Shown one piece after another: positions 12,446 to 40,689 of a stretch of DNA of 64,000 nucleotides. The translations under genes were made by a program, and so were the position numbers. Position 1 is the stretch's first letter, and every line of letters begins with the position of its first letter. The notes beneath the pieces are model-generated. The model did no database searches, had not been told where the DNA came from, and saw only the letters and a program-made list of their open reading frames with translations. Source of the DNA: Acidimicrobiia bacterium (GTDB lineage: Bacteria > Actinomycetota > Acidimicrobiia > Spongiisociales > Spongiisociaceae); contig VXMM01000043.1 in NCBI GenBank assembly GCA_009841105.1, positions 1-64,000 on the forward strand. Direction: 5' to 3'.

Positions 12446-13455
12446 AGCGCAGTTACGGCATCTCGCTGGGCGTGAGCCCCCGGGAGCCTCTGAGCCGCAC
12501 GTCCGAGCTCGCCCGGGCAATCGACGAGAGCGGCTTCGACGCCCTCTGGTACATCGATTTCCAGCTCGGGATGAAGGATGTGTATGCGGCCATGAACCTG
12601 GCCGCGCTGTCCACCAGCAGAGTGCTCATCGGAGCGGGCGTCACCAACCTGGTGACCCGGCACCCCACCGTCACCGCCAACGCGACGGCCGCACTCGACG
12701 AGCTCTCCGGCGGTCGGGCCGTTCTCGGCCTCGGCGCGGGCTGGTCAGCGGTGCTGGGCGCCGGCGGCAGGCCGTCGAAGCTGGGCGACGTGCGGGCCGG
12801 GATCGACGGATTCCGCCGGCTGTTCACCGGCGAGGCATGCGACCTCTACGGCACCCGGGTCCGCCTGGCGGCAGCCGGGCGCCAGATCCCCATCTACCTT
12901 GCCGCTTCGCAGCCCGCCATGCTGCGCCTCGCCGGCGAGGTCTGCGACGGCGTCGTGCTGATGGGCGCCGCCGACCCCGAGTTCTGCTCGTGGCAGCTCG
13001 ACTTCATCCACGAGGGCCTGGCGGCAGCCGGGCGCGATCGCAGGGAGATGACGATCGACCTGTTCGTCACCATGTCGGTGGGCGACGATGAGGAAACCGC
13101 CATCGCGGACATCCGGGCCTGGGCCACCAGCCAGGCAGCCACGTTCCACCCGTGGAAGCGCATGCCCCCGGCGTGGGAGAGGTTCCGCCCCGAGTTCGCA
13201 CGGGCTGCCGACGCCTACCACCTTGTCGATCACCTCTCGCTGCAGGCCCGGCACCGCCGGATCGTGTCGGACGACTTCGCCCGGTCGGTGGCGCTAGCGG
13301 GCGACCTGGACACCTGCGTCGACCGGCTCCGCCGCCTGTGGCAACTCGACATCGACCGCATCACCTTCGCGCTCCTGTCGGGCGGGCGGCAGCAGCGTCT
13401 AGCCCACCTGTCCGGCACTGTGATCCCCGCCGTCGAAGCAGCAGGGAGAAACTGA
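12442..13455 (+). CDS. LLM-class flavin-dependent oxidoreductase
   Basis: A 337-residue luciferase-like TIM-barrel oxidoreductase that uses FMN or coenzyme F420. Typical segments are [20 protein letters not shown], the barrel strand [20 protein letters not shown], and [18 protein letters not shown] near residue 90. The ATG at 12442 overlaps the hydrolase stop (ATGA); the upstream in-frame GTG/ATG region would only add six residues. In this context it could oxygenate the substrate or dehydrogenate an intermediate; F420 use is plausible in an actinobacterium but not shown. Confidence 0.88.
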
Positions 13456-14216
13456 TGGACAACAACCTTCCGGTGGCGCTGGTAACCGCGGCCGCAGGAG
13501 CCGGCATCGGAGCGGCGGTGGCACGCCGGCTCGCTTCGGACGGCTTCGACGTGGTGGTGACCGACGCTCATGAGCGCCGGTGCCGCCAGTTCGCCCGAAC
13601 CCTGTCCGACCAGCTCGGGCGGGAGGTCCTCTCGTACCCCCTCGACGTGACCGACCACGCGCAGGTGCGTTCCGTCATCAATGACGTGGTGGCCCGCAGG
13701 GACCGCTTCGATGTGCTGGTCAACAACGCGGGATGGTCGAAGATCGAGCCGGTGGCCGAGATGTCCCTGGAGACCTGGCAGCGCTGCCTCGACGTGGATC
13801 TCACCGGCACGTTCGTGTGCATGCGCTACGCGCTCCCCACCATGATCGCCAATGGCGGCGGCTCGATCATCAACATCTCGTCGATCGCGGCCTGGGAGAT
13901 GTCGGCCGATCACGGCGCGGCCTACTCGGCCGCCAAGGCCGGCGTCCTGGCCCTTACCCGGGTCGCCGCGGCCGAGAACGGGGTCCATGGGGTGCGTGTC
14001 AACGCCGTCGCTCCGGGCCTCATCCACAACGATTTCCTCCGCCGGATCTACCCCGAGGAGTTCTTCGACCGCTACCTGTCCGAGAAGGCGTTCCTGGACC
14101 GGGTGGGACGGCCCGACGACGTGGCGAGCATGGTCGCCTTCCTGGCCTCGGACGAAGCGAGCTATGTGACGGGCGAGGTGTTCACCGTCTCGGGAGGTGT
14201 GTCCGCCCGTGGATGA
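13455..14216 (+). CDS. Short-chain dehydrogenase/reductase
   Basis: A 253-residue classical SDR. The nucleotide-binding motif is [17 protein letters not shown], a little modified from TGxxxGxG. NNAG is in [14 protein letters not shown], the catalytic Ser in [11 protein letters not shown], and the YxxxK pair in [15 protein letters not shown]. The C-terminus ends in the usual [12 protein letters not shown]. It should oxidise a hydroxyacyl or alcohol intermediate with NAD(P). TGATG overlap with the gene before and eight-base overlap with the next. The open frame extends upstream to 13152, but the family start and overlap fix 13455. Confidence 0.92.
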
Positions 14217-15588
14217 CGGCCCCCTCTGGTGGCCCGTACAGCGGCTCGTAGAGGCCTACCGCGACGGCTCGCTGTCACCCGTCGAGGTAGCGGAACTGGC
14301 CCAGGCCCGTATCGCCGAGACCGACCCGATCCTCCATTCGTTCGTCCTGGCCACGCCCGAGCTGGCCAAGCGCCAGGCTGCGTCAGCCGAGGCGGCATAC
14401 CGGAACGGCCGCCCGGGCCCCCTCGCCGGAGTCCCGGTCTCGATCAAGGACGCCTTCCACGTCGAGGGCCACGTCACCACGCTCGGTTCGTTGGCCCACA
14501 CCGGCGACGTGGCCCGCCACGACTCGGGCGCCGTGCGCCGCCTGCGGAGGGCCGGAGCCGTGTTCGTCGGCAAGACCAACGTCCCGGAGTTCTGCCAGTC
14601 GGCCACCACCGACAACCTGCTGGGTCCGGACACCGCCAACCCCTTCGACCCCGGCCGCACAACGGGAGGGTCCAGCGGCGGCGCCGCGGCCTCGGTCGCT
14701 TCGGGGACCTGCACTCTCGGGCTCGGTTCCGACGGCGGGGGATCGATCCGCATCCCGGCGGCGTTCTGCGGCCTGGTGGGCCTGAAACCCACCTACGGCG
14801 CCGTGGACGATGCCGGCGGCTTCCAGGCCTTCACCCCGTTCATCTCCCCCGGCCCGCTGGCCCGGTCCGTGGGTGACGCTCGATACATGCTTTCCGTCCT
14901 CGCTGCAGGCGGCACCGCAACCCCGGGCACCCCGGCCGGGACGGGCCTGCGCCGTGTCGCATGGTGCTCCAACCCGGAGGACCGCCCGGTGGACCCCGGT
15001 CTCGCTGCCGTCGTCACCTCGGCGGTGGCGAAGCTCGCCGCCCACGGGCACCACGTCAGTCAGGTCGAACTGGACCTCGGAGGATGGGAGGACATGTTCG
15101 GGCTGCTCGTGCTGGCCGAGGAGGGCGAGCGCCGCGGCCACCTGCTCCACGGTCCCCACCGGCTGACGACGTACCAGGAGCGATCCCTTAGAGCGGCCGA
15201 GCAACTGGACCCGGAGACCCTCCGGAACGCCCGCTCGGCCCTCGTGCAGTACCGGGCCCGGGTGGACCGGTACTTCCGCGACCACGACGTGATCGCCACG
15301 CCCGCCACCGCCACCCCCGCCTTCGAGCTCGGACACCGGCCGAAGACCATCGCCGACCGGGGGGTGGGACGGCTCTGGGGTGCGTTCCCGTTCGCGGTGC
15401 CCTTCAACGTCTCCGGGCATCCCGCCATAGTTCTCCCGGTGGGTTTCGTGGACGGCCTACCGGTCGCCATCCAACTCGTCGGACGGCACAATGCCGACCT
15501 CGACCTGCTATCCCTCGCCGAGCAACTCGAATCCGGATTGAACCTCCGGCCCTTCGCCCGGCTTCCGTCCCGGATCCCGGCCTCATGA
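14209..15588 (+). CDS. Amidase (amidase signature family)
   Basis: About 459 residues of the amidase signature family, which hydrolyses amides with a Ser-cisSer-Lys triad. The lysine is in [11 protein letters not shown], the cis-serine loop in [16 protein letters not shown], and the nucleophile region in [20 protein letters not shown]. It could open or remove an amide in the substrate of this operon. The start is GTG 14209, eleven bases after a GGGAGG ribosome site; GTG 14197 is an alternative. It overlaps the following gene by ATGA. Confidence 0.9.
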
Positions 15589-16364
15589 GCGACGTAACCC
15601 GACGGCTCGAGGGCTCCGCTCTCCTCCTGGAGATCAACCGTCCGGATCGCGCCAACGCTCTGTTGTGCCGCACGATCCGCGAGCTCGAAACCGGACTCGA
15701 TGCAGCCGAAGCGCCCGAATCCGACCCGACCCGGCTCCCCGGCACAGATGTCAGCGGAGTGGTCATCACCGGAGGATCGAGACACTTCAGCGCCGGAGCG
15801 GACCTCGCGGCGCTCACCGGATCGATCGAGGACATCGAGTTCGATGACGAGCTCGAACGCCTTTGCCGCCGGATCACCCACAGCCCGCTGCCGGTCGTGG
15901 CCGCGGTAGAGGGCGCCTGCTACGGCGGAGCCGTCGACCTGGCCTGGGCCTGCGATGCGGTCGTGGTCTCCGAAGAGGCGCGCCTCGCCGTGCCGTCGAC
16001 CAGGTTGGGAATCCTGTACAACCCGGTGTCCGTAGCCCGCCTGCATTCCCGGCTCGGCTCGTCGGTCGTGCGCCGTCTCATGGTCCTTCAGCAGGAGTTG
16101 GCAGGCCGGGACCTCCCGCCCGGCTCGGCGCTAGGTGTGCAGCCTGGCACGGCGGTCGAAGCCGCCGTGCGCCTCGTCCAGGCGGTCTCAGCTGACGGCG
16201 ACGCCACCCGGGCCACGAAGGGCCTGCTCGCGTCGCTGGACAGCCATGCCGGGTTCAACCCCGCCCGCTGGCGGGCAGTGCGAGAAGCCCTGCTGGTCTC
16301 GCCGGCCCGCCGGGAAGCCCTCGAGACCCACCGGGCCTCGATCGGTAGGGAGCAGAAGGAATGA
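15585..16364 (+). CDS. Enoyl-CoA hydratase/isomerase family protein
   Basis: A 259-residue crotonase-fold protein acting on CoA thioesters. The oxyanion-hole segments are visible as HFSAGADLAAL and EGACYGGAVDLAWACD, followed by RLAVPSTRLGILYNP. The usual catalytic glutamates are not certain: the position after GACYGGAVDL holds Ala-Trp rather than a clear Glu, so the exact reaction (hydration, isomerisation or ring opening) is open. It is coupled by four-base overlaps to the amidase and the MaoC gene. Confidence 0.88.
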   Translation: MSDVTRRLEGSALLLEINRPDRANALLCRTIRELETGLDAAEAPESDPTRLPGTDVSGVVITGGSRHFSAGADLAALTGSIEDIEFDDELERLCRRITHSPLPVVAAVEGACYGGAVDLAWACDAVVVSEEARLAVPSTRLGILYNPVSVARLHSRLGSSVVRRLMVLQQELAGRDLPPGSALGVQPGTAVEAAVRLVQAVSADGDATRATKGLLASLDSHAGFNPARWRAVREALLVSPARREALETHRASIGREQKE

Positions 16365-17173
16365 ACCTGAAGGACCTGGCTGGCCACGACCTCGGCACCC
16401 GCACCGTCGACTTCTCAGCCGACGACGCCATCCTCTACGCCCTCGCCGTGGGTGCCTCGGCCTCGCAACTCGACCTGGTCTACGAGCGCGACCTGCGGGT
16501 TCTTCCTACATATGCCTGCGCTCTCGGCCTGTGGGCAGTTGAGGCAGCCGGCCGCCTCGGCGCCTACGATCCCACCCGGTCCCTCCATGTCGGCCAGAGC
16601 CTGGTGGTCCACGAGCCTTTGCAGCCCCGACCGACCCCGACGTGCGGCCGGGTCCGCTCCGTGTACGACAAGGGCAGGCTCACCATCGTCCACGTCGAGG
16701 TGGCCGCCGCCGGCTTCGAAGCCGGTTACACGATCCTGCTGCCCGGGGTCGGAGGCTGGGGCGGCGACCCACCTCCGCCGACCGGTAAGACCGCCGGGCT
16801 GGCGCCGACCTGGACCGCAACGGCGCACGTAGCGCCGGAGGCAGCCGTGCTCTACCGGCTCACCGGCGACAAGCACCCCGTCCACGTCGATCCATCCGTG
16901 GCCTCCGCCATGGGACTGGACGGGCCGATCCTGCACGGGCTGGCCACCATGGGCATCACAGCCAGGGCCGTGGCAGAAGCCGTGAGCACCCATCCGGCTG
17001 ACCTGTCCGCGGCCACGGTGCGCTTTTCCAGACCGGTCTACCCCGGGTGCCGGGTGCAGGTCGACGCCGAGACCCAACAGATGACCGCACGTGTCGAGGC
17101 CTCGGTCGACGGCGTGACGGCCATGTCCGGCACATTCACCTTCCTACCAGGGTCATCATCACCCGACAGTTAG
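16361..17173 (+). CDS. MaoC-like enoyl-CoA hydratase (double hot-dog)
   Basis: A 270-residue protein with two hot-dog folds in tandem, as in R-specific 2-enoyl-CoA hydratase 2. The second half carries the hydratase motif YRLTGDKHPVHVDP followed by GPILHGLATMGI, containing the Asp-x4-His pair. Together with the SDR it would give an R-specific hydration/oxidation branch of beta-oxidation. It is the last gene of the seven-gene operon, and the next gene lies about 175 bases on. Confidence 0.88.
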   Translation: MNLKDLAGHDLGTRTVDFSADDAILYALAVGASASQLDLVYERDLRVLPTYACALGLWAVEAAGRLGAYDPTRSLHVGQSLVVHEPLQPRPTPTCGRVRSVYDKGRLTIVHVEVAAAGFEAGYTILLPGVGGWGGDPPPPTGKTAGLAPTWTATAHVAPEAAVLYRLTGDKHPVHVDPSVASAMGLDGPILHGLATMGITARAVAEAVSTHPADLSAATVRFSRPVYPGCRVQVDAETQQMTARVEASVDGVTAMSGTFTFLPGSSSPDS

Positions 17174-25770: not shown

Positions 25771-28176
<2,406 letters not shown>

Positions 28177-28704
28177 GCTACCTAATCGCTGTGCGCGCCA
28201 CCACAGCCGGGACCCACAAGCCTCATCGAGGACCTCGTCCTATTCCGGCCAAGGCCTCGCTCGGGTCAAAACCAAGGACTCGAACGGTTGCCGCGACCAA
28301 CGCGAGCGGCAGGCTGGATCAATGTGACCGTCACCGCTTCCGGCCGCGCTGAGGCGCCTGTCCGCAACGAGTTGGCTACCGTACCCACGCCGGGGGTAGC
28401 AGGGAGCAGTGATCGGTCCAGCGTGGCATCAATCCCGACCGCGGCTACATCTCCTGTCCCGGCAGGGACGGACAGCCGATGACCTGTAGGTCGACGACCT
28501 CATCGTAATTCCTCTCCCCGCTGCATTCGCCGCTACGCTCTCAGTTGGCACTTGGGCGACGCCCTCCAGTCGATCAGCGGGATGTCTTGCACTGTTTGAG
28601 GGCTAACACCCTTCTACGATTCATGACCAGGGCGTGTCTGAGAGTTCACGAACAAAGAGAGACTATCGTAAGGATAACACCATCGTACAAAGGTGGCTAT
28701 CGGA
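28177..28704. other. Gene-free left border of the defence island
   Basis: Between the divergent uvrA-like and methyltransferase genes I find no coding frame and no tRNA. Composition shifts from G+C-rich to mixed near 28500. Hexamers TTGCAC (28587-28592), TTGAGG (28596-28601) and TACGAT (28615-28620) are at wrong spacings for a confident promoter. No attachment-site repeat shared with 38720-38979 was seen by eye. Confidence 0.5.
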
Positions 28705-30009
28705 TTGAAGTTCATTGACCTTTTCGCTGGTCTTGGCGGTTTTCGGGTTGCGCTCGAGCGTCTCGGACACGACTGTGTCTTCGCGTGCGAGGTCGATCCC
28801 CAATTACAAGAGATCTACACCCGAAATTTTCCGTACGGACCCACAATCCACGATGACATCCGCGTATCAAAGAAATTGGTACCTCCTCATGATATTCTTT
28901 GTGCCGGGTTTCCCTGTCAACCCTTTTCAAAGTCCGGCACACAAGCTGGCTTCACAGACGAGACATCTGGTACCCTCTTTCACGAGATTCTGGACATCGT
29001 AAAGCAGCACACACCAAGTTATATCATATTGGAGAATGTTGGCAACTTCGAGCGCCATGACAAGGGTCGAACCTGGCGTATTGTCAGGAATAGTCTGCGC
29101 CAACTCGGCTACGAGATCAGGGCTACCGAGCATGTTGCCAGCGGCGGCGAAGGACTACTTTCGCCCCATCACCTAGACTATCCGCACCATCGCGAACGTT
29201 TCTTTGCCGTAGCCTCTCTCCTAGGTGTACCTAGGAACAGTTTTCCTCCCAGGAACCGAAAGGCAAAGACATCGATGGCGAAGGTCGTTCAGCCCCTAGA
29301 TGAATTATCGGAGCGCGATCTTGAAGAAACGCGAATTGCCGAACAGCATCGCCAGTGTATTGAGCATTGGAACAGTTTCTTGGAAGCGCTACCAGAAGAA
29401 AGATTCACTCTACCCTCATTCCCAATCTGGGCAGATGAGATCGACGCTACATATCCCTTCGAGCATGCTACTCCTTGGGCCCGGCTTCTCAACGCTGCCA
29501 ATGATGTCGCTCCCAAGAACGGGGCGGCTGTCACCTTGGACGATTTCCTTTTACTCCCGAGCTACGCCCGAAGACGCGTCCAGCGTTTCCCTCCTTGGAA
29601 GGTACGATTCATCGAAGCCAACCGAACCTGGCTATCTTCGATACGGAAGGAGCTTCCACTTGACTGGGTCGAGGAACTCCGGCTGTTTCCACCTTCTCTC
29701 CGGAAGCTGGAATGGAATTGCCAGGGAGAATCCAGGAATCTGTGGAACCACATCCTTCAATTCCGGCCTTCAGGTCTTCGGGCAAAGAGATATACGAACA
29801 GCCCGTCATTAGTTGCGATGACATCAACCCAGATTCCCATCCTTGGACCTGAGCAACGGCATCTGACTCGACGTGAAGGATTAAGGCTACAGGGATTTCC
29901 TGATTCCTTTCATCTTCCCGAATCTCGGGTGGCTACGTTCAAGGCGCTCGGCAACGCTGTACATGTTGACCTGGTTCAGAATATTGCACATCGACTCGTA
30001 AGAATGTAA
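28705..30009 (+). CDS. drmMII: C5-cytosine DNA methyltransferase (DISARM DrmMII-like)
   Basis: A methyltransferase of about 434 residues that should mark self DNA for the defence genes downstream. Motif I is KFIDLFAGLGGF at the N-terminus, the catalytic Cys is in CAGFPCQPFSKSG (motif IV), IILENVGNF is motif VI, HHLDYPHHRERFF is motif VIII, and GLRLQGFPDSFHLPE with FKALGNAVHVDLV are motifs IX-X. A long variable region (about 200-360) is the target-recognition part. The TTG at 28705 starts at the usual family position, eight bases after AAAGGTGG; GTG 28693 is an alternative. Much less G+C-biased in codon use than the genes before it. Confidence 0.92.
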   Translation: MKFIDLFAGLGGFRVALERLGHDCVFACEVDPQLQEIYTRNFPYGPTIHDDIRVSKKLVPPHDILCAGFPCQPFSKSGTQAGFTDETSGTLFHEILDIVKQHTPSYIILENVGNFERHDKGRTWRIVRNSLRQLGYEIRATEHVASGGEGLLSPHHLDYPHHRERFFAVASLLGVPRNSFPPRNRKAKTSMAKVVQPLDELSERDLEETRIAEQHRQCIEHWNSFLEALPEERFTLPSFPIWADEIDATYPFEHATPWARLLNAANDVAPKNGAAVTLDDFLLLPSYARRRVQRFPPWKVRFIEANRTWLSSIRKELPLDWVEELRLFPPSLRKLEWNCQGESRNLWNHILQFRPSGLRAKRYTNSPSLVAMTSTQIPILGPEQRHLTRREGLRLQGFPDSFHLPESRVATFKALGNAVHVDLVQNIAHRLVRM

Positions 30010-30186
30010 TGTCACTTATAGCCTACGTAAACCCATCGCTAAATCGTAGCTATAAAGAGTTACAGCTCTAGGGAGGGTTCACCCGTATCTCACCACCAAT
30101 ATACAGATTAAACAATTGACACCTAGCTACGAGTCCTGTACTCAGTTGGGGCCACGACTTGAACAGTTATTCTAGTGCCCTTCCGC

Positions 30187-30283
30187 GCTGTGGAGTGACA
30201 ACTCCTCGGCCGACACTCGAACATGAGTTGATTTGCATCAGATTCTCATGTTCGCTTGACTGCATGCGCTGTCACTCCACAGC
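30187..30283. other. Nested perfect inverted repeats
   Basis: An outer perfect 14-base inverted repeat (GCTGTGGAGTGACA at 30187-30200 and its complement at 30270-30283) encloses a perfect 10-base repeat (CGAACATGAG at 30218-30227, complement at 30245-30254), which encloses TGAT/ATCA (30229-30232, 30237-30240). It lies in the 325-base gap between the methyltransferase gene and the rest of the island, and ends 51 bases before the next start. It may be a paired operator, a structured leader RNA or a small mobile relic. No target-site duplication is evident. Confidence 0.8.
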
Positions 30284-30334
30284 CTTTGGCTTTCGGAGGC
30301 AACTCGTCTCCCCAGGACCCGATCTGAAGGTGCC

Positions 30335-30829
30335 ATGCTTAGTGTCGAAGAGGCTCTGTCGCAACTTACGGAGCAGCATCAGGCAGCTCTTCGTTGGTTT
30401 GTGTCCCATAGAGGTCAGGATCACTCGTGGCCAGGGTCGCTCTCAGATGGGACACTGCTAGCAACCAAAGCTAAAGGTATCTACAAACCACATTGGAGTA
30501 CCTACGCGCTCAGCGTGCGGCAAAGTCTCGACGGCCCGTACTCGGACGGTGATCCTAGGCCGCGTCGCGATGGTACTTGGTCCTATGACTACTTCCAGGA
30601 AAACATCGACCCGAACCAACGGGATTCGGAGTATACGAACATTGGACTGATTCAGTGTATCAAGGATGGAGTGCCGGTAGGTGTGCTCCGTCAGGTTGCA
30701 AGAAGTCCCGGAGCCCTCTATCGGATACTCGGACTCGCTCTCGTTGTTGGGTGGGAGGATGGGTACTTCTATCTTGAAGGATTTTCTGATCATGGCCTGG
30801 CCTATGAACGCCGGACACATACAGATTGA
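30335..30829 (+). CDS. Small restriction-associated protein of the defence island
   Basis: A soluble protein of 164 residues. The core segments LLATKAKGIYKPHWSTYALS, DGTWSYDYFQENIDPNQRDS, YTNIGLIQCIKDGVPVGVLR and ILGLALVVGWEDGYFYLEGF resemble, from memory, the N-terminal modules of actinobacterial HNH-type restriction endonucleases, which probably read modified or specific DNA; I could not check this. No HNH motif or nuclease centre is visible here, so it looks like the reader part alone. An AAGG ribosome site precedes the ATG. It lies between the methyltransferase and the helicase genes in the same direction. Confidence 0.65.
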   Translation: MLSVEEALSQLTEQHQAALRWFVSHRGQDHSWPGSLSDGTLLATKAKGIYKPHWSTYALSVRQSLDGPYSDGDPRPRRDGTWSYDYFQENIDPNQRDSEYTNIGLIQCIKDGVPVGVLRQVARSPGALYRILGLALVVGWEDGYFYLEGFSDHGLAYERRTHTD

Positions 30830-31046
30830 AGTACTAGTAGAACGGCTCGCAAATGTGTTCATGGACATGGGATATAGCGATGAGGATTTCGGGGGTAGCC
30901 GTGTATGTAGAGTCGCGTTTGCTGTCCGACGCGGCGGCCAAGCAGAGTCTTGCCGCGCTACCGACGTTCGTGCCCGGTCAGTCAACTGCCGAAGTACTGG
31001 ACTCCCAGCGCGGATCGACAGCGACCGGCCAGAGGGGGAGTCTGTC

Positions 31047-32987
31047 TTGACCGCGACTGCTCGGCCCATACCAGACTGGGATCTGGAGCAACTTGAGGTC
31101 ATCCTGGATGACCCCGAGAGTTGGCAGCTAGTAGTCGCGGGTCCAGGCGCTGGTAAGTCTGCTGTTGCGTGCCAACGTGTGGCTTCGCTAGTCGACGACG
31201 GTGTTCAACCCTCTCGTATCTTGCTGATCAGCTTCACGAGGACTGCGGCTGCTGAACTCCGAGAGCGGATCGTGTCCTACGCGATGGCACGAGAGAGTGC
31301 CCGGGCAGTTCGTATTTCGACAATCGATTCTCACGCATGGAGTCTCCGAGCGGGATTCGACGATAAGCCTTTTGAAACATCCCTCGCCGATAACTCCTAC
31401 GAGCTTAGCATCGCCCAGGCAGTGGATCTGTTCCGCAACGACAACCCAGACCTCCTCGACTTCATGGACCGAGTTGAGCATCTAATCATCGATGAGGCCC
31501 AGGACGTAGTGGGGATCCGCGCGGACCTAGTCATTGAGATTCTACGGTCATTGTCCGAGGAGTGTGGAGTGACGATTCTCGCAGATCCTGCCCAGGCGAT
31601 CTATGGCTTCACGAGTGATAACAGAGAGAACACGGAACACGAAGCCTCGCTATTGGACCAACTAGAACGCAACAGTCCACGAAAACTGGTCCCTCGACAA
31701 CTAACACATGTCTATCGGATCCAGAACCACGACCTCTTGAAGGTATTCTACCAGACTCGCGATGAAGTTGAGCGAGTTGCGGGTGACACCGGCGATGTCG
31801 ACCGCATAGTGTCAACAATTCACGACACTGCCCTGCACAACCTGGGTTCTACCTCGCACAAGGAGGTTGCCAAGTATCTGGCAGATCACGGGAGTGATTC
31901 CTTCCTGGTCCTGTTTCGGCGCAGAGTAGATGTTCTGCTGGCGTCGTCATATTGCACTAGCTATGGAGTACAGCACCGGCTTCGAATGGCGGGCGTTCCT
32001 ACAATGGTACATCCTTGGATCGGTTGGATGTTTGCTGAGTTTGGCAAGCCGCTGGTCACGAGGCGAGAGTTTGATGTCCTCTGGGATCAGCGCGCTGCTG
32101 TCAGCCCAACCCCATTTGAAGGAGAGGATAAGGACAAAGCGTGGACCGTTCTGCGTCAGCTAGCAGCTGGAGGGCGGAACAACGTTGTCGACTTGACCTA
32201 CCTTCGTAAGCTGGTGTCACGCACGCATCCTCCGATCGAATTGAGCCTTCCGAACCTGGGAATGACCGGTCCGATCCTTGGTACAATTCATGCCTCAAAG
32301 GGCCGTGAGGCAGATAGTGTAGCCTTGGTATGTCCTGCTGTACGGCGCAGGTCAGAGTCCGACTCCCGGGCTGAAGAACGTGAAGAGGGCCGCGTCTACT
32401 ATGTTGGAGCTACTCGGGCGCGCGAGACCCTCATCACGGCCAGTAACGGAGGATCCGGTGCACGCTACATGGAATCTGGGCGAATATACAGGAGACTCCG
32501 TTCCAATGGCAAGCAGCCACCCAGAATACACTTCGAGGTCGGACGCGACGGTGACATCGACCGCCTCGCCCACCTGGGGTGGACGACAACTGGCGAGATA
32601 CAGCGAGTGCTCGCAGAATCCGTCCACCTGACTCTACCTCTGAGGGCTATTTGCCGACCAACTCACGATTTCAAGTTCAGACTAGTACTGGAGCCAGAGA
32701 CAGCCAGGATTACTACTAAGGCGATCGAGATAGCTCAGTTGGGCCAGGCATTTCATTATGACTTGCACGAACTCTGGTCCAAAGTTGACACTGCCGACCA
32801 ATTCAGACCGGGTGACTATATGGAACATATTCACCTTGTTGGAGTGACTACGGTCGCGCTGTCCGATAGTGAGAAGGAGTCGATCGGCCCTCCACACAGC
32901 AACAGTGGGTTCGCTCTCGCACCGGTAATCAAAGGCCTTACCGTGGTACAGTTTCTGTACCGTAAGAAGAGGTATGTTAGATGGTGA
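31047..32987 (+). CDS. UvrD/Rep-family (SF1) helicase of the defence island
   Basis: About 646 residues of a superfamily 1A helicase. Motif I is VVAGPGAGKSAVACQRV, motif Ia ILLISFTRTAAAELRERI, motif II IIDEAQDV, motif III ILADPAQAIYGF, motif V GTIHASKGREADSVAL and motif VI VYYVGATRARETLI. The C-terminal 180 residues have no recognised domain. TTG 31047 is preceded by GAGGGGGAG; the frame is open back to 30681 without clear homology. It occupies the place that an accessory gene (drmE or drmD) has in known DISARM operons. It overlaps drmA by seven bases. Confidence 0.85.
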   Translation: MTATARPIPDWDLEQLEVILDDPESWQLVVAGPGAGKSAVACQRVASLVDDGVQPSRILLISFTRTAAAELRERIVSYAMARESARAVRISTIDSHAWSLRAGFDDKPFETSLADNSYELSIAQAVDLFRNDNPDLLDFMDRVEHLIIDEAQDVVGIRADLVIEILRSLSEECGVTILADPAQAIYGFTSDNRENTEHEASLLDQLERNSPRKLVPRQLTHVYRIQNHDLLKVFYQTRDEVERVAGDTGDVDRIVSTIHDTALHNLGSTSHKEVAKYLADHGSDSFLVLFRRRVDVLLASSYCTSYGVQHRLRMAGVPTMVHPWIGWMFAEFGKPLVTRREFDVLWDQRAAVSPTPFEGEDKDKAWTVLRQLAAGGRNNVVDLTYLRKLVSRTHPPIELSLPNLGMTGPILGTIHASKGREADSVALVCPAVRRRSESDSRAEEREEGRVYYVGATRARETLITASNGGSGARYMESGRIYRRLRSNGKQPPRIHFEVGRDGDIDRLAHLGWTTTGEIQRVLAESVHLTLPLRAICRPTHDFKFRLVLEPETARITTKAIEIAQLGQAFHYDLHELWSKVDTADQFRPGDYMEHIHLVGVTTVALSDSEKESIGPPHSNSGFALAPVIKGLTVVQFLYRKKRYVRW

Positions 32988-35900
32988 CCTCCCAACCACT
33001 ATTTCGGGACACGATTGCGTTGCGACTCAGAGAAGATCTGGCTGGGCCACAATCAGAGTACGAGGTCCTGTCGGATCGGCCGACACAGCTTTATAGCACA
33101 GGAATTCTATATCCACAAGACTCACCGATTACGCCTGAAGAAGATCAAGACCGTGATCTGGCAGTTAATATCAAGGAGGATTCTGCTTCTGACCCCGATA
33201 CATCGGGTGTTCCCTTGTACACAGTACTGAAGCCCTCCGTCGCCGGGATGTCATTCGCCGTGAACCCCGATGATTCCGACGTAACCTCGGCTGTAACATT
33301 TAGTATTCGGTGTGCATCCTATGAGCGCTTCGCTATTGATGAAGAAGGTGAAGAGGTTTCGGGCCCTCCGGCCCACCGGGCGTATGAACGATGGCGACGA
33401 ATTCCGTATCGTACAACGGTCGTCGTAGAACTCCTTTCCGGAGAAACGCGGCTTAATCTCGCACATGCTGGTATCGACGGCCTTGACCTCTATGTACTCG
33501 TGACACCCTATGCCGGAGTACTGACTGTAACTGCCGCGCTATCAAACCAAAGGTACCGTGGAGAATCCTGGGTGATGAGTGAGCAACAGCATTTCTTCCA
33601 GGTAGAGCTATCAGCCGACGAGGTGAGGGATGGGTCGTTCGTGGAACGTCCATCTCGGCGTGTAGCGATGGACGACGACAGCAGGAGTGCGGCGCTTATC
33701 TATCGTGACGTCACCGAGTACGTCGTCGGGCATACGTGCTCCGCTACGGCTGTTTCTGTCAACGAATCGTACGGCTCAGTCCGCCTCAAGACTGAGTGGA
33801 TTCCCTCGGCTACTGTCGCAAGTATCAGCGATAAGGGCCATGACGTGTTTGACGCCCTTCGGGACGGTGATGCGTCGCGCCCTCTAGATGCAGCATGGCT
33901 TGCGGAGGCTGCTGATGTAGAACTCGCGGGGGCGTTGGCTCAAATTGTGGCAGCCTACAGGCGGTGGATAGACGAGCAAGAGCAGCGAGTACGCCGGCTT
34001 CCTGAGATCCTGCGCCCGCAGGCAAGGAAGCACTTGGATCAATGTAAAGAAAGTGCTGATCGGATGGACGAGGGCGTTCATCGTATTCGTAACGATGCGG
34101 ACATCCGCTCGGCGTTCCAACTATCGCAAAGAGCGATGAGCCTACAATTCAGTTGGCGGCAGCCGGGGCAGCCCCTTGTATGGCGGCCGTTCCAAATCGG
34201 CTTTCAGCTCCTGGTGTTGTCCTCGCTCGCCGACCGACAGCATCCAGCTAGAGCAATTATGGATCTGCTCTGGTTCCCGACGGGTGGAGGAAAGACGGAA
34301 GCCTACCTCGCACTCACTGCCTTCATTATCTTCATTCGTAGACTGCGAGCGACCGATAACGATCCCGGCACCGGAGTTGTTGTCTTAATGCGATATACTC
34401 TGCGATTACTGACTATTCAACAGTTCCAGCGAGCAGCCGCGGTTATTCTAGCATGTGAGCTTCTTCGCCGTGACTCTGAGGCGGAGGGAGCCAACCTTCC
34501 CAACCTAGGTCGTTCTGCCATTGGTATTGGTCTTTGGGTTGGTAGTAGCGCAACACCAAATACACTTCGAGAGGCAGTCGACCAGAGTTCCGACAGTCTC
34601 AGCACTCCCCGGCAAATGACCAGTTGCCCGGCTTGTGGCGCGACACTCGAATGGAAAGTGTTGCGCTCCGGATCGACCGTCAAATGTTCATCCGATGTTT
34701 CCGAGTGTGTACTCAGGTCCTCTGGTGAATATCTGCCAATCTGGACTATAGATGAGGAGGTCTATCAGCACGCGCCTTCTCTGGTAATAGGCACCGTTGA
34801 TAAGTTTGCTCAGATAGTGAGGAACATGAACACCCGGGTGCTCTTTGGGGGTAGGACGGGCGGTGGTGCTCCACCAGATCTCATAATTCAGGACGAACTA
34901 CATCTCATTTCAGGTCCTTTGGGCTCGGTTGCAGGTTTGTACGAGGTTGCGATCGACGAACTCTGTAGTAGAGAGAATGTTCGTCCGAAAATTGTCGGCT
35001 CCACCGCCACTATTCGCAGGGCAGAGGATCAGATCAGGGCCTTGTTTGATAGGGACACTTATCAGTTTCCGTCGCCAGGGCTAGATGCTGGTGACTCGGG
35101 CTTTGCAGTGATTGACGAGACTCGTCCCGGTCGGCTTTACGTTGGTGTCACAACAGCAGGACGCTCAGCAACGTATATGCTTCAGGCTCTTGCTGCCTCC
35201 CTCTTACAGGCGGCCACTGATCCTAGTGCCTCACCAAAGGAAAGGAATTTCTACTGGACCCAGGTCGTCTACTTCAACTCGCTACGGGAGCTTGGACACG
35301 CCCTTGTGCTAATGCAAGATGACGTACCAGTATCCATCAGACAGATTGGCGGCCGCAGATGTGAATCCCCCAGGCCAGTGGGCGTCCCGTCGGAACTAAC
35401 GAGTCGAGTGCCGTCGTACGAGATTCGCGATATGCTCGACCGGCTAGCAGTTGATGCGAATGATCCAGAATCAGTAACGCTTGTACTCGCATCGAATATG
35501 ATCTCTGTCGGTATCGATATTCCGCGCCTTGGTCTGATGGTTGTCAACGCCCAGCCGAAATCACTTTCTGAGTATATCCAGGCTACCAGTCGTGTAGGAC
35601 GAGGGGAAGTACCAGGACTAATTGTCACGATGTATAACAATATGAGAGCGCGAGATCGGTCCCACTACGAGACGTTTGAGACCTGGCATCGCTCATTCTA
35701 TAGAGATATCGAAGCTACAAGCGTCACCCCGTTCGCGTCAAGGGCACAGGATAAGGCGCTACATGCGGTTCTGGTGGCTCTGTGCAGGCACAGAATTCTC
35801 GGCATGGACAGGCGCCCCGTCCTCGACGATATTCGAAGGGCTGAGGTCGAACAGCTCGCCTCCCTCATCGAAGAGCGAGTAGCCCGCGTCGACCCAGGTG

Positions 35901-36169
35901 AACGCGTAGCCGTCTCCAGGAAGCTAACACAGCTGATTGACCAATGGGCGAGCCGCCCAGATCTTCAGGTCTATTGGAATGATTATCGGCGGAGGACCAG
36001 TCTCCTTATGTCGGCAGAGCAGTTCGCGGCAAACTCGGACACGGACCCTGACCTCGACTCAGATGGCGCTCGAAGAGCTCTCTGGCCAACCCCAAACTCA
36101 ATGCGTGACGTCGAGGCAGGGACCCCGTTCATACTTCGGTCACTGCTGAGGGCCAGGAGAGACAGATGA
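32981..36169 (+). CDS. drmA: DISARM helicase DrmA
   Basis: A 1062-residue superfamily 2 helicase-like protein matching DrmA, a core DISARM subunit that with DrmB binds DNA and restricts incoming phage. Walker A is WFPTGGGKTEAYLALTAF (near residue 435), the DEAD-like box is IIQDELHLISGPLG, followed by KIVGSTATIRRAEDQIR, and the C-terminal lobe has MISVGIDIPRLGLMVVNAQP and YIQATSRVGRG. Cysteines in CPACGATLEW and a later pair may bind zinc. About 400 residues precede the helicase core. It overlaps drmB by four bases (ATGA). Confidence 0.9.
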   Translation: MVTSQPLFRDTIALRLREDLAGPQSEYEVLSDRPTQLYSTGILYPQDSPITPEEDQDRDLAVNIKEDSASDPDTSGVPLYTVLKPSVAGMSFAVNPDDSDVTSAVTFSIRCASYERFAIDEEGEEVSGPPAHRAYERWRRIPYRTTVVVELLSGETRLNLAHAGIDGLDLYVLVTPYAGVLTVTAALSNQRYRGESWVMSEQQHFFQVELSADEVRDGSFVERPSRRVAMDDDSRSAALIYRDVTEYVVGHTCSATAVSVNESYGSVRLKTEWIPSATVASISDKGHDVFDALRDGDASRPLDAAWLAEAADVELAGALAQIVAAYRRWIDEQEQRVRRLPEILRPQARKHLDQCKESADRMDEGVHRIRNDADIRSAFQLSQRAMSLQFSWRQPGQPLVWRPFQIGFQLLVLSSLADRQHPARAIMDLLWFPTGGGKTEAYLALTAFIIFIRRLRATDNDPGTGVVVLMRYTLRLLTIQQFQRAAAVILACELLRRDSEAEGANLPNLGRSAIGIGLWVGSSATPNTLREAVDQSSDSLSTPRQMTSCPACGATLEWKVLRSGSTVKCSSDVSECVLRSSGEYLPIWTIDEEVYQHAPSLVIGTVDKFAQIVRNMNTRVLFGGRTGGGAPPDLIIQDELHLISGPLGSVAGLYEVAIDELCSRENVRPKIVGSTATIRRAEDQIRALFDRDTYQFPSPGLDAGDSGFAVIDETRPGRLYVGVTTAGRSATYMLQALAASLLQAATDPSASPKERNFYWTQVVYFNSLRELGHALVLMQDDVPVSIRQIGGRRCESPRPVGVPSELTSRVPSYEIRDMLDRLAVDANDPESVTLVLASNMISVGIDIPRLGLMVVNAQPKSLSEYIQATSRVGRGEVPGLIVTMYNNMRARDRSHYETFETWHRSFYRDIEATSVTPFASRAQDKALHAVLVALCRHRILGMDRRPVLDDIRRAEVEQLASLIEERVARVDPGERVAVSRKLTQLIDQWASRPDLQVYWNDYRRRTSLLMSAEQFAANSDTDPDLDSDGARRALWPTPNSMRDVEAGTPFILRSLLRARRDR

Positions 36170-37989
36170 GAAACGAGTTGGGAGATGTCCGGCGCAGCCA
36201 GGTGATTACCTCTCACGGGCCTGGTGCTCTCATCGACTTTCGGGCGGGTGGTTATGGCGGCGCCGGCGTGTCTGTCGTAGCCGGAGGTCTTGAAGAGTGG
36301 GATCGCTGGGCTGCGCCAGCAGGAATTGGTAATCCGCAGACAATCTTCGAGCCAAGATTGCAGAAGCAACTGAACGTTGACGGATTTCGTTTACCCCCTG
36401 TCGCGCCACAGATCGCCCCAGGCAAATACTCACCAAAAGCCGGCAAGTTGGTGGGGGTAAGGTATCCGAGATGGTTGCAGTGTCCTGAGTGCCACGTGAT
36501 AGGAGAAACTAGGCGCTGGGCCGAGGATCCAGGCGACCCTGCGCTGTACTGCGCGCCGTGCAGCGACAAGGCAGGTGGGCGTAATCGAGTTCATACCGTG
36601 CGTGTCAGGTTTATTGTGATCTGTGACAGAGGTCACTTGGACGAGTTCCCCTGGGAGTGGTGGGTCAATCATGATGAACAGTGTCCGCAAAAACATGACC
36701 TACAGCTGTCAGGTAGTGCAACTGCCGGCCTAGCCGGGCTCATACTTCAGTGCCTCGGATGCGACGCTCGACGATCAATGGAGGGCTGCTTTGGGCCGCG
36801 TGCTATCCCACCCCAGTGCCAAGGGCGTCGACCCTGGCTCGGCACGGATGCTGGTGAGTCCTGCTCTGCCAATCCGAGAGTGGTTCAGCGCGGAGCCTCT
36901 AATATCTACTTCTCTGTAGTTGAATCTGCCTTGGACATCCCACCATGGTCAGATGGATTGCAAAAAAAGATCGGAATGCGGTGGTCGATGCTAGAACAGG
37001 CACCCGACGCCCAGGCCCGACGCCTTCTGATAAGTGCCTTGCGTCTATCCAGTCTAGTAGATATGACGGAGGACCAACTAGCAGAAGAGATAGAGGACCG
37101 TATAAGGCGCCTTCGATCACCAGATCGAAACTTGCGTCTCGAAGAGTATCAACAGTTCGTCCGGCACATGGTGCCCTTTGGCGATAATACCGAGTTCGAG
37201 ATTAGGCCTTTGTCTCCACCACCTGAACTCGCCGGATGGCTGCAAAAGGTAGTTCGCGCGACACGTCTTCGTGAAGTGAGAGTCAACTGCGGCTTCACCC
37301 GCATTTTCCCGCCAACACCAGGTTCTGATCGGAGGATCGCCCAACTGTCTATGACATCCCTCGGCTGGCTTCCCGCTGTGGAAAACCGAGGTGAGGGGAT
37401 TTTCCTTCAACTCGACATCGAAAGAGTACGCGAATGGGAGCAGAGGCAGTTCGTACTGGAGCGAGTCGCTATGCTCCAGCAGACCTACACCGAGGCATGG
37501 CAGAGTCGGGGAACTGGGATACCACCCAGGACTCTGACGCCTCGTCTATTGCTCGTACACAGCCTCTCGCATGCCCTGATTTGCCAACTTTCCCTTAGCT
37601 GCGGATACGGTAGCGCATCACTTAGGGAGAGGCTGTACGTCGACTCAGGCGATTGGGACATGGCGGGGCTGCTTGTATTCACATCATCCCCAGACGCCGA
37701 CGGGACCTTAGGTGGTCTGGCTCGCCAAGCTAACCCACAAGCCTTGGTTCCTCTTGTTGAAGACTGCCTATCGGCTATGTCATGGTGCTCTTCTGATCCG
37801 CTTTGTATTGAAGGGGTCCATGCAAGTACTGAGCCTTCGAATGGAGCCGCTTGTCATGCCTGTATGCTGGCATCCGAGACGTCCTGTGAGGACTTCAACT
37901 CGTGCCTTGATCGTGCCACACTCGTCGGCACAGCAAGAAACCCTGAGTTAGGGTACTTTGCAGACTACCTACACGAACTTCGCCGGTAG
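36166..37989 (+). CDS. drmB: DISARM protein DrmB (DUF1998)
   Basis: 607 residues matching DrmB, the partner of DrmA in the core DISARM complex. The N-terminus RRSQVITSHGPGALIDF is characteristic. Zinc-type cysteine pairs are present (CPECHVIGE, CAPCSD, CLGCD). The C-terminal DUF1998 region has LLVHSLSHALICQLSLSCGY and ends in a cysteine-rich block (CIEGV, CHACMLASETSCEDFNSCLDR). Start and stop are coupled to drmA and drmC by overlaps, consistent with fixed stoichiometry. Confidence 0.92.
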   Translation: MRNELGDVRRSQVITSHGPGALIDFRAGGYGGAGVSVVAGGLEEWDRWAAPAGIGNPQTIFEPRLQKQLNVDGFRLPPVAPQIAPGKYSPKAGKLVGVRYPRWLQCPECHVIGETRRWAEDPGDPALYCAPCSDKAGGRNRVHTVRVRFIVICDRGHLDEFPWEWWVNHDEQCPQKHDLQLSGSATAGLAGLILQCLGCDARRSMEGCFGPRAIPPQCQGRRPWLGTDAGESCSANPRVVQRGASNIYFSVVESALDIPPWSDGLQKKIGMRWSMLEQAPDAQARRLLISALRLSSLVDMTEDQLAEEIEDRIRRLRSPDRNLRLEEYQQFVRHMVPFGDNTEFEIRPLSPPPELAGWLQKVVRATRLREVRVNCGFTRIFPPTPGSDRRIAQLSMTSLGWLPAVENRGEGIFLQLDIERVREWEQRQFVLERVAMLQQTYTEAWQSRGTGIPPRTLTPRLLLVHSLSHALICQLSLSCGYGSASLRERLYVDSGDWDMAGLLVFTSSPDADGTLGGLARQANPQALVPLVEDCLSAMSWCSSDPLCIEGVHASTEPSNGAACHACMLASETSCEDFNSCLDRATLVGTARNPELGYFADYLHELRR

Positions 37990-38719
37990 CCTCGTGGGGC
38001 TTCCTCGCGATCTAGTGAACTTGGAAGCGGCACTTCGGTCCGATACCAACGTTGATCTGTTCGCTCCAATTGAACACGGTGGCGGTGACCTTAAGAACTC
38101 GGCCATGGCAAAGGCGCTGATCGAGAGTCTCCAAAGGCGAAGGTATGCCGATCCAGAGCGTACTCTCACGATGTGCCTACAGGCGCTAAGAGTGCAGTAC
38201 GAAGAGTTAGATAGTGGTTCTATAGATGCCGAGCTTGTTGCCACACTACCGCCTGGGATCCCGGGCATTGCTAGAACGACCGACCAAGTGCTAATGGAAA
38301 TGCTAAGGCCCCCTGTGAGAGAGGTGATTCTACTGGGCTACGAGCTAAATGATCAGAAGATAATTGACCTCTTAATCGATGCAGAGGCTGCGGGAGCAAA
38401 CCTCATTGTAATCTGTGACAGGACAAGAGGTACAGTGGAACGGATTCTGAGACTCGGTCTCGCCCGAGTTCGAGTCTTCCAGGATCCAGAACGGCAAGAT
38501 GGTCCTCCCTACGCCTCAATGCATGCCAAGTGCCTTCTGGTAAATGGTACAGACCTGCTAGTCACGTCGGCGAACTTCACATTCCATGGGCTGCATGGCA
38601 ATATTGAGATCGGCGTACGCCTATCGGGTCCTCCAGCGTACGAGGCACGAAAAGTGTTTTCGCATTTGGTTCAGAACAACATCGTGGAGGAGGTGGGAGA
38701 GAACAACGCACCCATCTAA
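37958..38719 (+). CDS. drmC: DISARM phospholipase D protein DrmC
   Basis: A 253-residue phospholipase D-superfamily protein. It has one catalytic motif, SMHAKCLLVNGTDLLVTSANF (the HxK part with its trailing strand), so two subunits would be needed for a full site. The first 100 residues are helical. In DISARM, DrmC is the candidate nuclease but is reported to be dispensable for some activity. TTG 37958 overlaps drmB by 32 bases; GTG 37994 is an alternative start. The island ends here: 38720-38979 has no gene. Confidence 0.88.
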   Translation: MQTTYTNFAGSLVGLPRDLVNLEAALRSDTNVDLFAPIEHGGGDLKNSAMAKALIESLQRRRYADPERTLTMCLQALRVQYEELDSGSIDAELVATLPPGIPGIARTTDQVLMEMLRPPVREVILLGYELNDQKIIDLLIDAEAAGANLIVICDRTRGTVERILRLGLARVRVFQDPERQDGPPYASMHAKCLLVNGTDLLVTSANFTFHGLHGNIEIGVRLSGPPAYEARKVFSHLVQNNIVEEVGENNAPI

Positions 38720-38979: not shown

Positions 38980-40689
38980 ATGGTCTCACGGCTGGGATCG
39001 GTCCCGGAGTCACCGGAGGGAGACACGCCCGGGGAGGGCACGTCCTTACCGCTTGAGGGGGCTCGTGCGGAGGTCGAGGCGAAGTTCCTGATCGAGGACG
39101 CTGGGCAGGTTGGCGATCTGGTTGACTCTCTCGACTCGTATGACGTACGGTCGGACTCGGTCGTGGATGTCGTGGATTACTACTGGGATACGCCTGGCTG
39201 GCATCTGTTTAGGGCGGGGTGGACTTATCGGTGGCGTGACTGCTCGGGGGACAGGAGCATGATGCTGAAGTCCACCAAGTTGGGGGACGGGATTGTGCAG
39301 AGGCGCCGGGAGGTCGAGCGTCGGATATTGGCGTTTCCGCAGGACGGCGGTCACCCTCTGGTTGCCGAGCATGTCGCTGCCCGGTCCGGCGGTCTCCAGT
39401 CGGGGGATCTGCGGAAGCTCTTCCGCGTGCGGACGCACCGTCGCCTCTTCGACATCCGGATGTCCGATGGTGCGCTGGTGGAAGTGGGGATCGATCAGAC
39501 GGTGATCACCGCCGTTGGCCCCGTGAAGAAGCCGGCGCCAGGCCGCCTGGCGTTCGTGGAGTTGGAAATCGAGCTGAAGGAGGGTGAGGAGGAGTCGCTG
39601 CGGCAGTTGGCCGCCGAGACACAGCAACGTTTCGGCCTACTGCAGGCCCGTCTCAGCAAGTTCGAACGAGGGTTGCAGACCGCGGGCCTGTCGCCCCCGC
39701 AGGCTTCTCAAGTGGGGTTGCCGGCGAGCACCCCGTTCGTGGAGATGTTGCGGGAACGGGCGCCCGGGCCGACCGATCCGGCCATCCACCTGGCTTATGG
39801 CCGGTTGCTCGAGCAGTTCGAGGAGATGATCGCCCAGGAGCCCAAGGCCTGGGAAGGTCTGGACCCCGAAGGGGTACACAAGATGCGGGTGGCCACGCGC
39901 CGCCTCCGTTCCGCCCTTCGAGCCTTCAAGAAGGTGCTGCCCGCCTCGATCCGTTCGTTCAACGGCGAGTTCAAGTGGCTCGCATCCGCTCTCGGTGGTG
40001 TGCGGGACCTCGACGTCGCCAGGGGGAACCTCCCGCACTTCCTGTCCGACATACCTGAGGAGGATGCTGCGCACCTGGACGACTACCAGCGGTATCTGGC
40101 CGATCGGTGGCGGGAGGAGCGAAGACATTTGCTGGCCTGCCTGGCCGGCCGGCGGTACGGGCGTTTGAAGGCGGGCTTCGCGGAGCGGCTGGAACGGGGT
40201 CCGTCTGCGCCCGTTATGGCGACCCTGGGTTCGATCACGGTCGGCGAGGCCGCCCAGCTGCTCATCGGCAAGCGCGACCAGGGAGTGGTGCGCCGTGGTC
40301 GTGCGATCACATCCGCGTCCAGCGACGAGTCACTGCATGCGCTGAGGATCCGATGCAAGCGGCTGCGTTACCTCCTCGAGTTCTTCCGTCCGACCTACGG
40401 CGAACTGCTCAAAGCGGAAACCAACCGGCTGATGGAACTCCAGGATGTGCTGGGCGAGTTCCAGGACGCGTGCGTCGCCGGCCAGTTGCTTCGCCGCTAC
40501 GCGGAAGGCCTACCCACGCGCAGCGGCAACCGGGGCCAGCTCATCGCACTGGACCTGCTGATCGCCGACCAGGACCGCCGGGCTGCGACGCGCCGGGCCG
40601 ACTTCGCTAACGCATGGGAACGGTTCGATTCCCCTGGTGGCCGAACGAGACTCCTCACCCGCCTGGCGGAGAGTCGGGCGCCGGTCTAG
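38980..40689 (+). CDS. CYTH-CHAD domain protein
   Basis: 569 residues. The CYTH domain (about 25-225) has EVEAKFLIED near its start, plus YYWDTPGWHLFRAGWTYRWR and FVELEIELKEG, the acid-rich tunnel that handles triphosphates or polyphosphate. The CHAD domain (about 270-560) has repeated HKMRVATRRLRSALRAFK and LHALRIRCKRLRYLLEFF helices, whose basic residues bind polyphosphate. A role in polyphosphate or nucleotide metabolism is likely. Its stop overlaps the stop of the convergent gene. Confidence 0.92.
   Translation: MVSRLGSVPESPEGDTPGEGTSLPLEGARAEVEAKFLIEDAGQVGDLVDSLDSYDVRSDSVVDVVDYYWDTPGWHLFRAGWTYRWRDCSGDRSMMLKSTKLGDGIVQRRREVERRILAFPQDGGHPLVAEHVAARSGGLQSGDLRKLFRVRTHRRLFDIRMSDGALVEVGIDQTVITAVGPVKKPAPGRLAFVELEIELKEGEEESLRQLAAETQQRFGLLQARLSKFERGLQTAGLSPPQASQVGLPASTPFVEMLRERAPGPTDPAIHLAYGRLLEQFEEMIAQEPKAWEGLDPEGVHKMRVATRRLRSALRAFKKVLPASIRSFNGEFKWLASALGGVRDLDVARGNLPHFLSDIPEEDAAHLDDYQRYLADRWREERRHLLACLAGRRYGRLKAGFAERLERGPSAPVMATLGSITVGEAAQLLIGKRDQGVVRRGRAITSASSDESLHALRIRCKRLRYLLEFFRPTYGELLKAETNRLMELQDVLGEFQDACVAGQLLRRYAEGLPTRSGNRGQLIALDLLIADQDRRAATRRADFANAWERFDSPGGRTRLLTRLAESRAPV

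Follow-up and report, generated by a model that had tools for sequence, protein, structure and literature searches.

A DISARM-like island with a UvrD-type helicase coupled to drmA points to a widespread branch of the DrmA family

Where among the DISARM (defence island system associated with restriction-modification) systems does an island belong in which drmA, drmB and drmC are accompanied by a helicase of the UvrD type? The question is raised by a contig of an Acidimicrobiia bacterium (Actinomycetota; VXMM01000043.1, assembly GCA_009841105.1), the first 64000 nucleotides of which were analysed and are referred to here as the window. Open reading frame (ORF) reading placed six genes on the + strand between 28705 and 38719, as given in the original prediction, which had been made from the sequence alone. 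That prediction saw a class 2-like DISARM in which drmE was replaced by a UvrD/Rep helicase. In our analysis, this is likely a horizontally acquired anti-phage island built on a UvrD-DrmA-DrmB core, belonging to a separate and widespread DISARM-like branch ("UvrD-type DISARM") with two-motor restriction tempered by methylation.

The core consists of three overlapping + strand genes. The first (31047..32987, TTG start) encodes a helicase of 646 amino acids (aa) with intact Walker A and DEAQD motifs, the second (32981..36169) encodes DrmA, a superfamily 2 (SF2) YprA-type helicase with intact GGGKT and DELH motifs, and the third (36166..37989) encodes DrmB, its DUF1998/MZB zinc-binding partner. 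The predicted overlap of uvrD and drmA was exactly 7 bp (32981-32987), and that of drmA and drmB was 4 bp. DrmA scored 683 bits with the PADLOC model and 889 bits with the NCBIfam model DrmAS, under the curated equivalog cut-off of 950. DrmB scored 249 bits with PADLOC, 474 bits with NCBIfam DrmB_fam (cut-off 240) and 32.5 bits with Pfam MZB. The predicted DrmA, DrmB, DrmC-like and C5-cytosine methyltransferase (MTase) genes were all present, with profile matches far above chance.

The first helicase matched Pfam UvrD-helicase with 88 bits, its core had GajB of Gabija as best PADLOC match (82 bits), and across PADLOC, Pfam and NCBIfam its matches were to PcrA, UvrD and GajB. DrmE_fam (NF038316) gave zero matches across the whole genome of the island. 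An identity as DrmE was thus rejected, and on its profiles the protein is a superfamily 1A (SF1A) UvrD/GajB-like helicase standing in place of DrmE, as predicted. SF1A helicases travel 3' to 5'. It differs from Gabija in that no GajA was found among the PADLOC matches of the six island proteins, and in belonging to a drmA-linked subfamily with its own tail. This C-terminal tail of ~175 aa (residues ~470-646), without a Pfam match, is particular to the subfamily and holds a conserved GxSGxxLAPR-like motif just ahead of drmA; it is a candidate for the DrmAB-binding part. In the nearest relative, locus L076, the helicase was 50% identical, and the homology started just past the TTG start of the island helicase.

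To what extent does this coupling recur? A DrmA search of 396 genomes from the same phylum gave 29 with a match, and only the three relatives with the best scores had a homologous UvrD directly upstream, overlapping or abutting drmA. A profile of the four helicases had strong matches in 4 of the 396 genomes, each time at drmA. Two candidates per genome were scored, and the profile includes the three relatives by construction, so that the informative part is the absence of the subfamily elsewhere. When the DrmA clade was used for a genome-wide scan, 80 loci were collected, and a UvrD homologue was present in 63, nearly always directly upstream on the same strand; this is not a prevalence, because the loci were chosen by their likeness to UvrD-linked DrmA. 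Altogether, UvrD stood directly upstream of drmA on the same strand in 71 of the 119 DrmA loci collected. Three of these 71 UvrD-type loci (L104, L133 and L138) were labelled by hand, owing to mispredicted gene starts or a split drmA, and L034 and L102 are one and the same locus. The UvrD-type loci come from at least eight phyla, including Actinomycetota, Pseudomonadota, Bacillota, Balneolota, Myxococcota, Acidobacteriota, Chloroflexota and Candidatus Melainabacteria. They include named plasmid loci with annotations as UvrD-helicase, helicase-related or DUF1998 proteins. The gene order proposed for the neighbourhood survey was recovered in its UvrD-drmA part; the gene for the 164-residue protein (R164) lay next to none of the other drmA genes examined, and DrmC was found in one other UvrD-type locus.

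The coupling also followed the DrmA phylogeny. The UvrD label required 3 changes on a tree built from 115 DrmA proteins, compared with a mean of 35.5 after shuffling, and none of the 500 shuffles was as low. The island DrmA paired with that of L076 (65% identity). UvrD-type DrmA proteins fell into two clades with support values of 91 and 98, both distinct from class 1, which has DrmD, and from a group associated with a NERD-type helicase and DrmE. With the NCBI DrmA model, tested members scored 1134-1238 bits in the class 1 clade, 986-1009 bits in the second UvrD clade and 861-912 bits in the island's clade, where all three scored members, the island included, lay below the cut-off. A single UvrD-type clade was not rejected on a 47-row tree (approximately unbiased test, p-AU 0.47), which is no proof of a single origin. 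Because the coupling recurs widely and tracks the DrmA phylogeny, these sequence comparisons support the predicted new DISARM subtype as a fair reading.

The outer genes of the island are less regular. The DrmC-like phospholipase D (PLD) protein (37958..38719, +) scored 76 bits with PADLOC DrmC, 47 bits with Pfam PLDc_2 and 86 bits with NCBIfam DrmC, under the cut-off of 133. Its HxK motif is present (HAKCLLVN), but in HxKx4D an Asn replaces the Asp that was kept in 10 of 10 other aligned DrmC proteins. Among the other UvrD-type loci, DrmC was found in L088 only; 3' of drmB in L076 there is a short DrmC-like start, interrupted by a stop close to the contig end. The island therefore unites a UvrD-type core and a DrmC-like gene, which is a rare mix. 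The MTase (28693..30009, +; start at 28693 GTG or 28705 TTG) has intact PCQ and ENV motifs and scored 213 bits with the Pfam C5-MTase model. Its best profile was PADLOC DruM2 with 276 bits versus 180 bits for DrmMII, which places it closer to DruM2 by sequence.

Several of these observations weigh against the proposed reading. The link of the MTase to the triad is not conserved, and L076 carries another C5-MTase, of 495 aa. DrmC is rare in the UvrD-type branch, and with Asn in place of Asp the island copy may be inactive. The union of the two UvrD-type clades is not positively supported, and the 80 loci of the genome-wide scan, which was seeded with UvrD-linked DrmA, had been preselected by similarity.

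Partner genes of the 71 UvrD-type loci included a sacsin-like ATPase/SF2 helicase (43 loci), a C5-MTase (31), a NERD-UvrD helicase (29) and Vsr (23). The first is a fusion of ~1590 aa (L131:3241-8004, family F3) encoded near the triad, in most cases immediately 5' of the UvrD gene; in most of the Actinomycetota versions it probably serves as an accessory subunit. On the Rhizobium rhizogenes plasmid pC5.7d (L158), a C5-MTase, a McrC-like DUF2357 protein, Vsr, UvrD, DrmA, DrmB and a NERD protein are encoded in one run, which may be the DISARM-like/McrBC association mentioned in PMC11090510.

What, then, is R164 (30335..30829, +), which had been predicted to resemble the DNA-reading modules of restriction enzymes? 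No Pfam, NCBIfam or PADLOC model matched it. Its relatives are mostly proteins of 313-426 aa with an R164-like domain followed by a C-terminal HNH_2 domain, and the best of them, a Rhizobium HNH protein, was 50% identical across residues 1-161. R164 thus corresponds, as a stand-alone protein, to the N-terminal half of endonucleases of an SRA-HNH family. It ends where the HNH linker would start, homology ceases at residue 161, and no HNH remnant was detected 3' of it in any frame (30830-31600). All 27 residues invariant among six full-length relatives are retained. The R164 profile matched an SRA set with an hhalign probability of 80% and the SUVH4 SRA weakly (E 0.05). An AlphaFold model from the single sequence was unusable (predicted local distance difference test, pLDDT, 40), and a four-sequence alignment was used instead, giving an AF2 model with pLDDT 73.6 and a predicted template modelling score (pTM) of 0.76. 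Foldseek matched this model to SRA domains with E 1e-4, and VIA gave Z 11.9 to the SUVH5 SRA (root-mean-square deviation 2.9, 123 aligned), 10.5 to TagI and 9.9 to ScoMcrA. According to the model, R164 is an SRA-like reader domain without a nuclease, sharing its predicted fold with the SRA-HNH endonucleases TagI and ScoMcrA and differing from them in lacking the HNH half. The reading module was therefore borne out as a predicted SRA fold, but relatives do not have it among the genes of the system: no R164 homologue adjoined drmA at the 80 nearest DrmA loci or at a set of 30 loci. The idea that R164 is one of the conserved components was accordingly rejected.

Full-length SRA-HNH relatives of R164 also occur in Vibrio phages or prophages (L166:2638-3918 in PQ189353.1, L176 and L178), where they adjoin an integrase or other defence-like genes. 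Viral contigs gave no relatives when R164 itself, A4 or the Rhizobium protein served as query, and A3 was too diverged to yield a pattern; the Vibrio phage homologue used as query yielded usable relatives.

In the proposed mechanism, DrmAB, combining an SF2 translocase with a DUF1998 clamp, would load on single-stranded or overhang regions of unmodified incoming DNA. The co-translated SF1A helicase would be the second motor, opening ends, gaps or forks and feeding DrmAB. The C5-MTase would mark host DNA, on which the complex would stay idle, and the unwound DNA would be degraded by DrmC or host nucleases. DrmAB of Serratia DISARM binds 5'-overhang and single-stranded DNA, its ATPase activity is lowered by 5-methylcytosine (5mC), and DrmC is dispensable there (PMC9142583). 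R164 would be an SRA-type reader of modified cytosine whose HNH nuclease has been lost. Next to an active C5-MTase, a nuclease dependent on 5mC would turn against the host, a self-toxicity that may explain the loss of the HNH half and why only a nuclease-free R164 could persist. We favour R164 as a relic or as a nuclease-free reader, perhaps of the self mark.

The best-surviving alternative is that a UvrD-DrmAB(-DrmC) system and an unrelated decayed restriction remnant, made up of the C5-MTase and the HNH-less R164, are chance neighbours and that the remnant has no part in the system. We regard this as quite possible, if somewhat short of an even prospect. R164 lacks its HNH half and stands beside no other drmA examined, the MTase differs from that of L076, and the relatives of R164 with HNH are without a clear C5-MTase neighbour, one weak MTase-like ORF being found in seven neighbourhoods searched. 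Moreover, MTase and R164 are separated by a gap of 325 bp holding a strong nested inverted repeat of 97 nt (30187..30283, +), with perfect 14-nt arms (30187-30200/30270-30283) and inner arms (30209-30227/30245-30263), identified by repeat search and RNA folding (z = -4.7). Neither this repeat nor the island as a whole had an Rfam match, and the repeat has no second copy in the genome; a promoter and terminator scan found no excess of signals above shuffles. The repeat is a possible attenuator, terminator or mobile-element remnant. Against chance neighbourhood, the triad commonly has a C5-MTase among its partners, in many cases together with Vsr, the R164 ORF is intact with its family-invariant residues, and base composition is alike across the six genes.

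We consider unlikely the most far-reaching reading, a third DISARM class in which UvrD is obligately coupled to DrmAB and the captured nuclease-less SRA reader of the island reads the 5mC of the MTase as self and thereby restrains the complex. If true, R164 would be a reader-based switch between self and non-self of a kind not known in DISARM.

Returning to the island as a horizontally acquired defence system, its site can be set against the notion of a DNA-repair module, in which a UvrD and a YprA-type helicase would work together as in MrfAB. The UvrD and YprA/MrfA families do include repair helicases (PMC12458937), and the left neighbour is a uvrA-like gene. Nevertheless, the DrmA and DrmB profiles are those of DISARM, and the context is mosaic and mobile. 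The island is AT-rich, as predicted, with a GC content of 0.50-0.57 per gene compared with 0.66-0.68 in the flanking genes. Its flanks, a UvrA-like ABC ATPase gene (25771..28176, -) on the left and a CYTH-CHAD gene (38980..40689, +) on the right, lie outside the system and bracket different cargo in genomes of the same genus (15.7 kb in G402 and 19.4 kb in G403), and in G401 the CYTH-CHAD gene has a class 1-like set of drmA, drmB and drmC in its vicinity. Because the same flanking genes enclose different, in part defence-like, cargo, the site is a chromosomal insertion hotspot. Plasmid relatives adjoin transposases and integrases together with dcm, Vsr, McrC-like DUF2357 and DarT genes. A repair module is thus highly improbable. 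Cargo at or near this site in the genus (L186, L187 and L191) comprises large helicase-like, GHKL-like and class 1 DISARM genes.

Even less probable is an ordinary class 2 DISARM (drmMII-drmA-drmB-drmC-drmE) with a diverged DrmE as accessory gene. The island shares with class 2 a C5-MTase, DrmA, DrmB and a DrmC-like protein, and a real DrmE does occur in the phylum: DrmE_fam exceeded its cut-off in 1 of the 396 genomes (G120, 263 bits), beside a NERD-type helicase and drmA (L047). However, the genome of the island has no DrmE match, the helicase has its own UvrD/GajB/PcrA matches, and DrmA falls outside the NERD-helicase/DrmE group. With DrmE absent, a MTase nearer DruM2 and a DrmC that is rare in its branch, the island does not support the label "class 2-like". 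Class 1 (drmD-drmMI-drmA-drmB-drmC) shares DrmA, DrmB and a DrmC-like PLD protein in that order, but the island has a UvrD helicase instead of DrmD, lacks an adenine MTase, and its DrmA lies in another clade. Neither the SNF2 protein DrmD nor DrmMI was among the profile matches listed for the island proteins; the DrmD model does match elsewhere, for example on F8 of L082. The same genome holds a second DISARM-like locus (L003; G000:C68:78000-97500) with drmA (13358-16903, -), drmB and a PLD gene. Its drmA falls in the class 1 clade, no DrmD was found among the ORFs read, and by inspection its flanks are a RES-type gene and a divergent DUF4365-like gene.

Least probable of all is the suggested intermediate between DISARM and ARMADA: ARMADA type II also pairs a YprA-type SF2 helicase with a GajB-like UvrD helicase (PMC12458937), and a few UvrD-type loci have, close to drmB, a RelE-UvrD gene resembling ArmD (family F10), but the island has no BrxHII-like or SNF2 helicase, no PglX-like MTase and no fused DUF1998 part, its UvrD starts at the helicase domain without RelE, its DrmA is strongly of the DrmA family and encoded separately from DrmB, and ARMADA YprA proteins are reported to be closest to Druantia, not DISARM (PMC12458937). 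The RelE-UvrD helicases near drmB (6 of the 71 loci; for example L104:6960-9137) suggest that DISARM-like and ARMADA systems have exchanged modules.

According to Bell et al. 2025 (PMC12458937), many DISARM-like classes within the DISARM-like clade of YprA proteins are uncharacterised, and the branch described here is presumably one of them. The main text of that study neither names nor describes the UvrD-DrmA-DrmB triad, and its sole mention of UvrD concerns ArmD. In the part of the literature on a third DISARM class or DISARM-like systems that was covered, no description of the triad was found. Recurrent yet unnamed in the accessible literature, the triad has the look of a third kind of DISARM that has escaped notice.

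Within the DrmA family there is thus a large branch, coherent in its phylogeny and present in many phyla, whose operons hold a second helicase as a fixed member. In NCBI annotation it often goes without a name, and several members are annotated as "helicase-related protein". With its truncated SRA reader next to a C5-MTase, the island offers a natural test of whether readers of modified cytosine can be kept without their nuclease. Defining the UvrD-type branch would help to sort DISARM-like loci and make the contribution of an SF1A motor to DrmAB testable.

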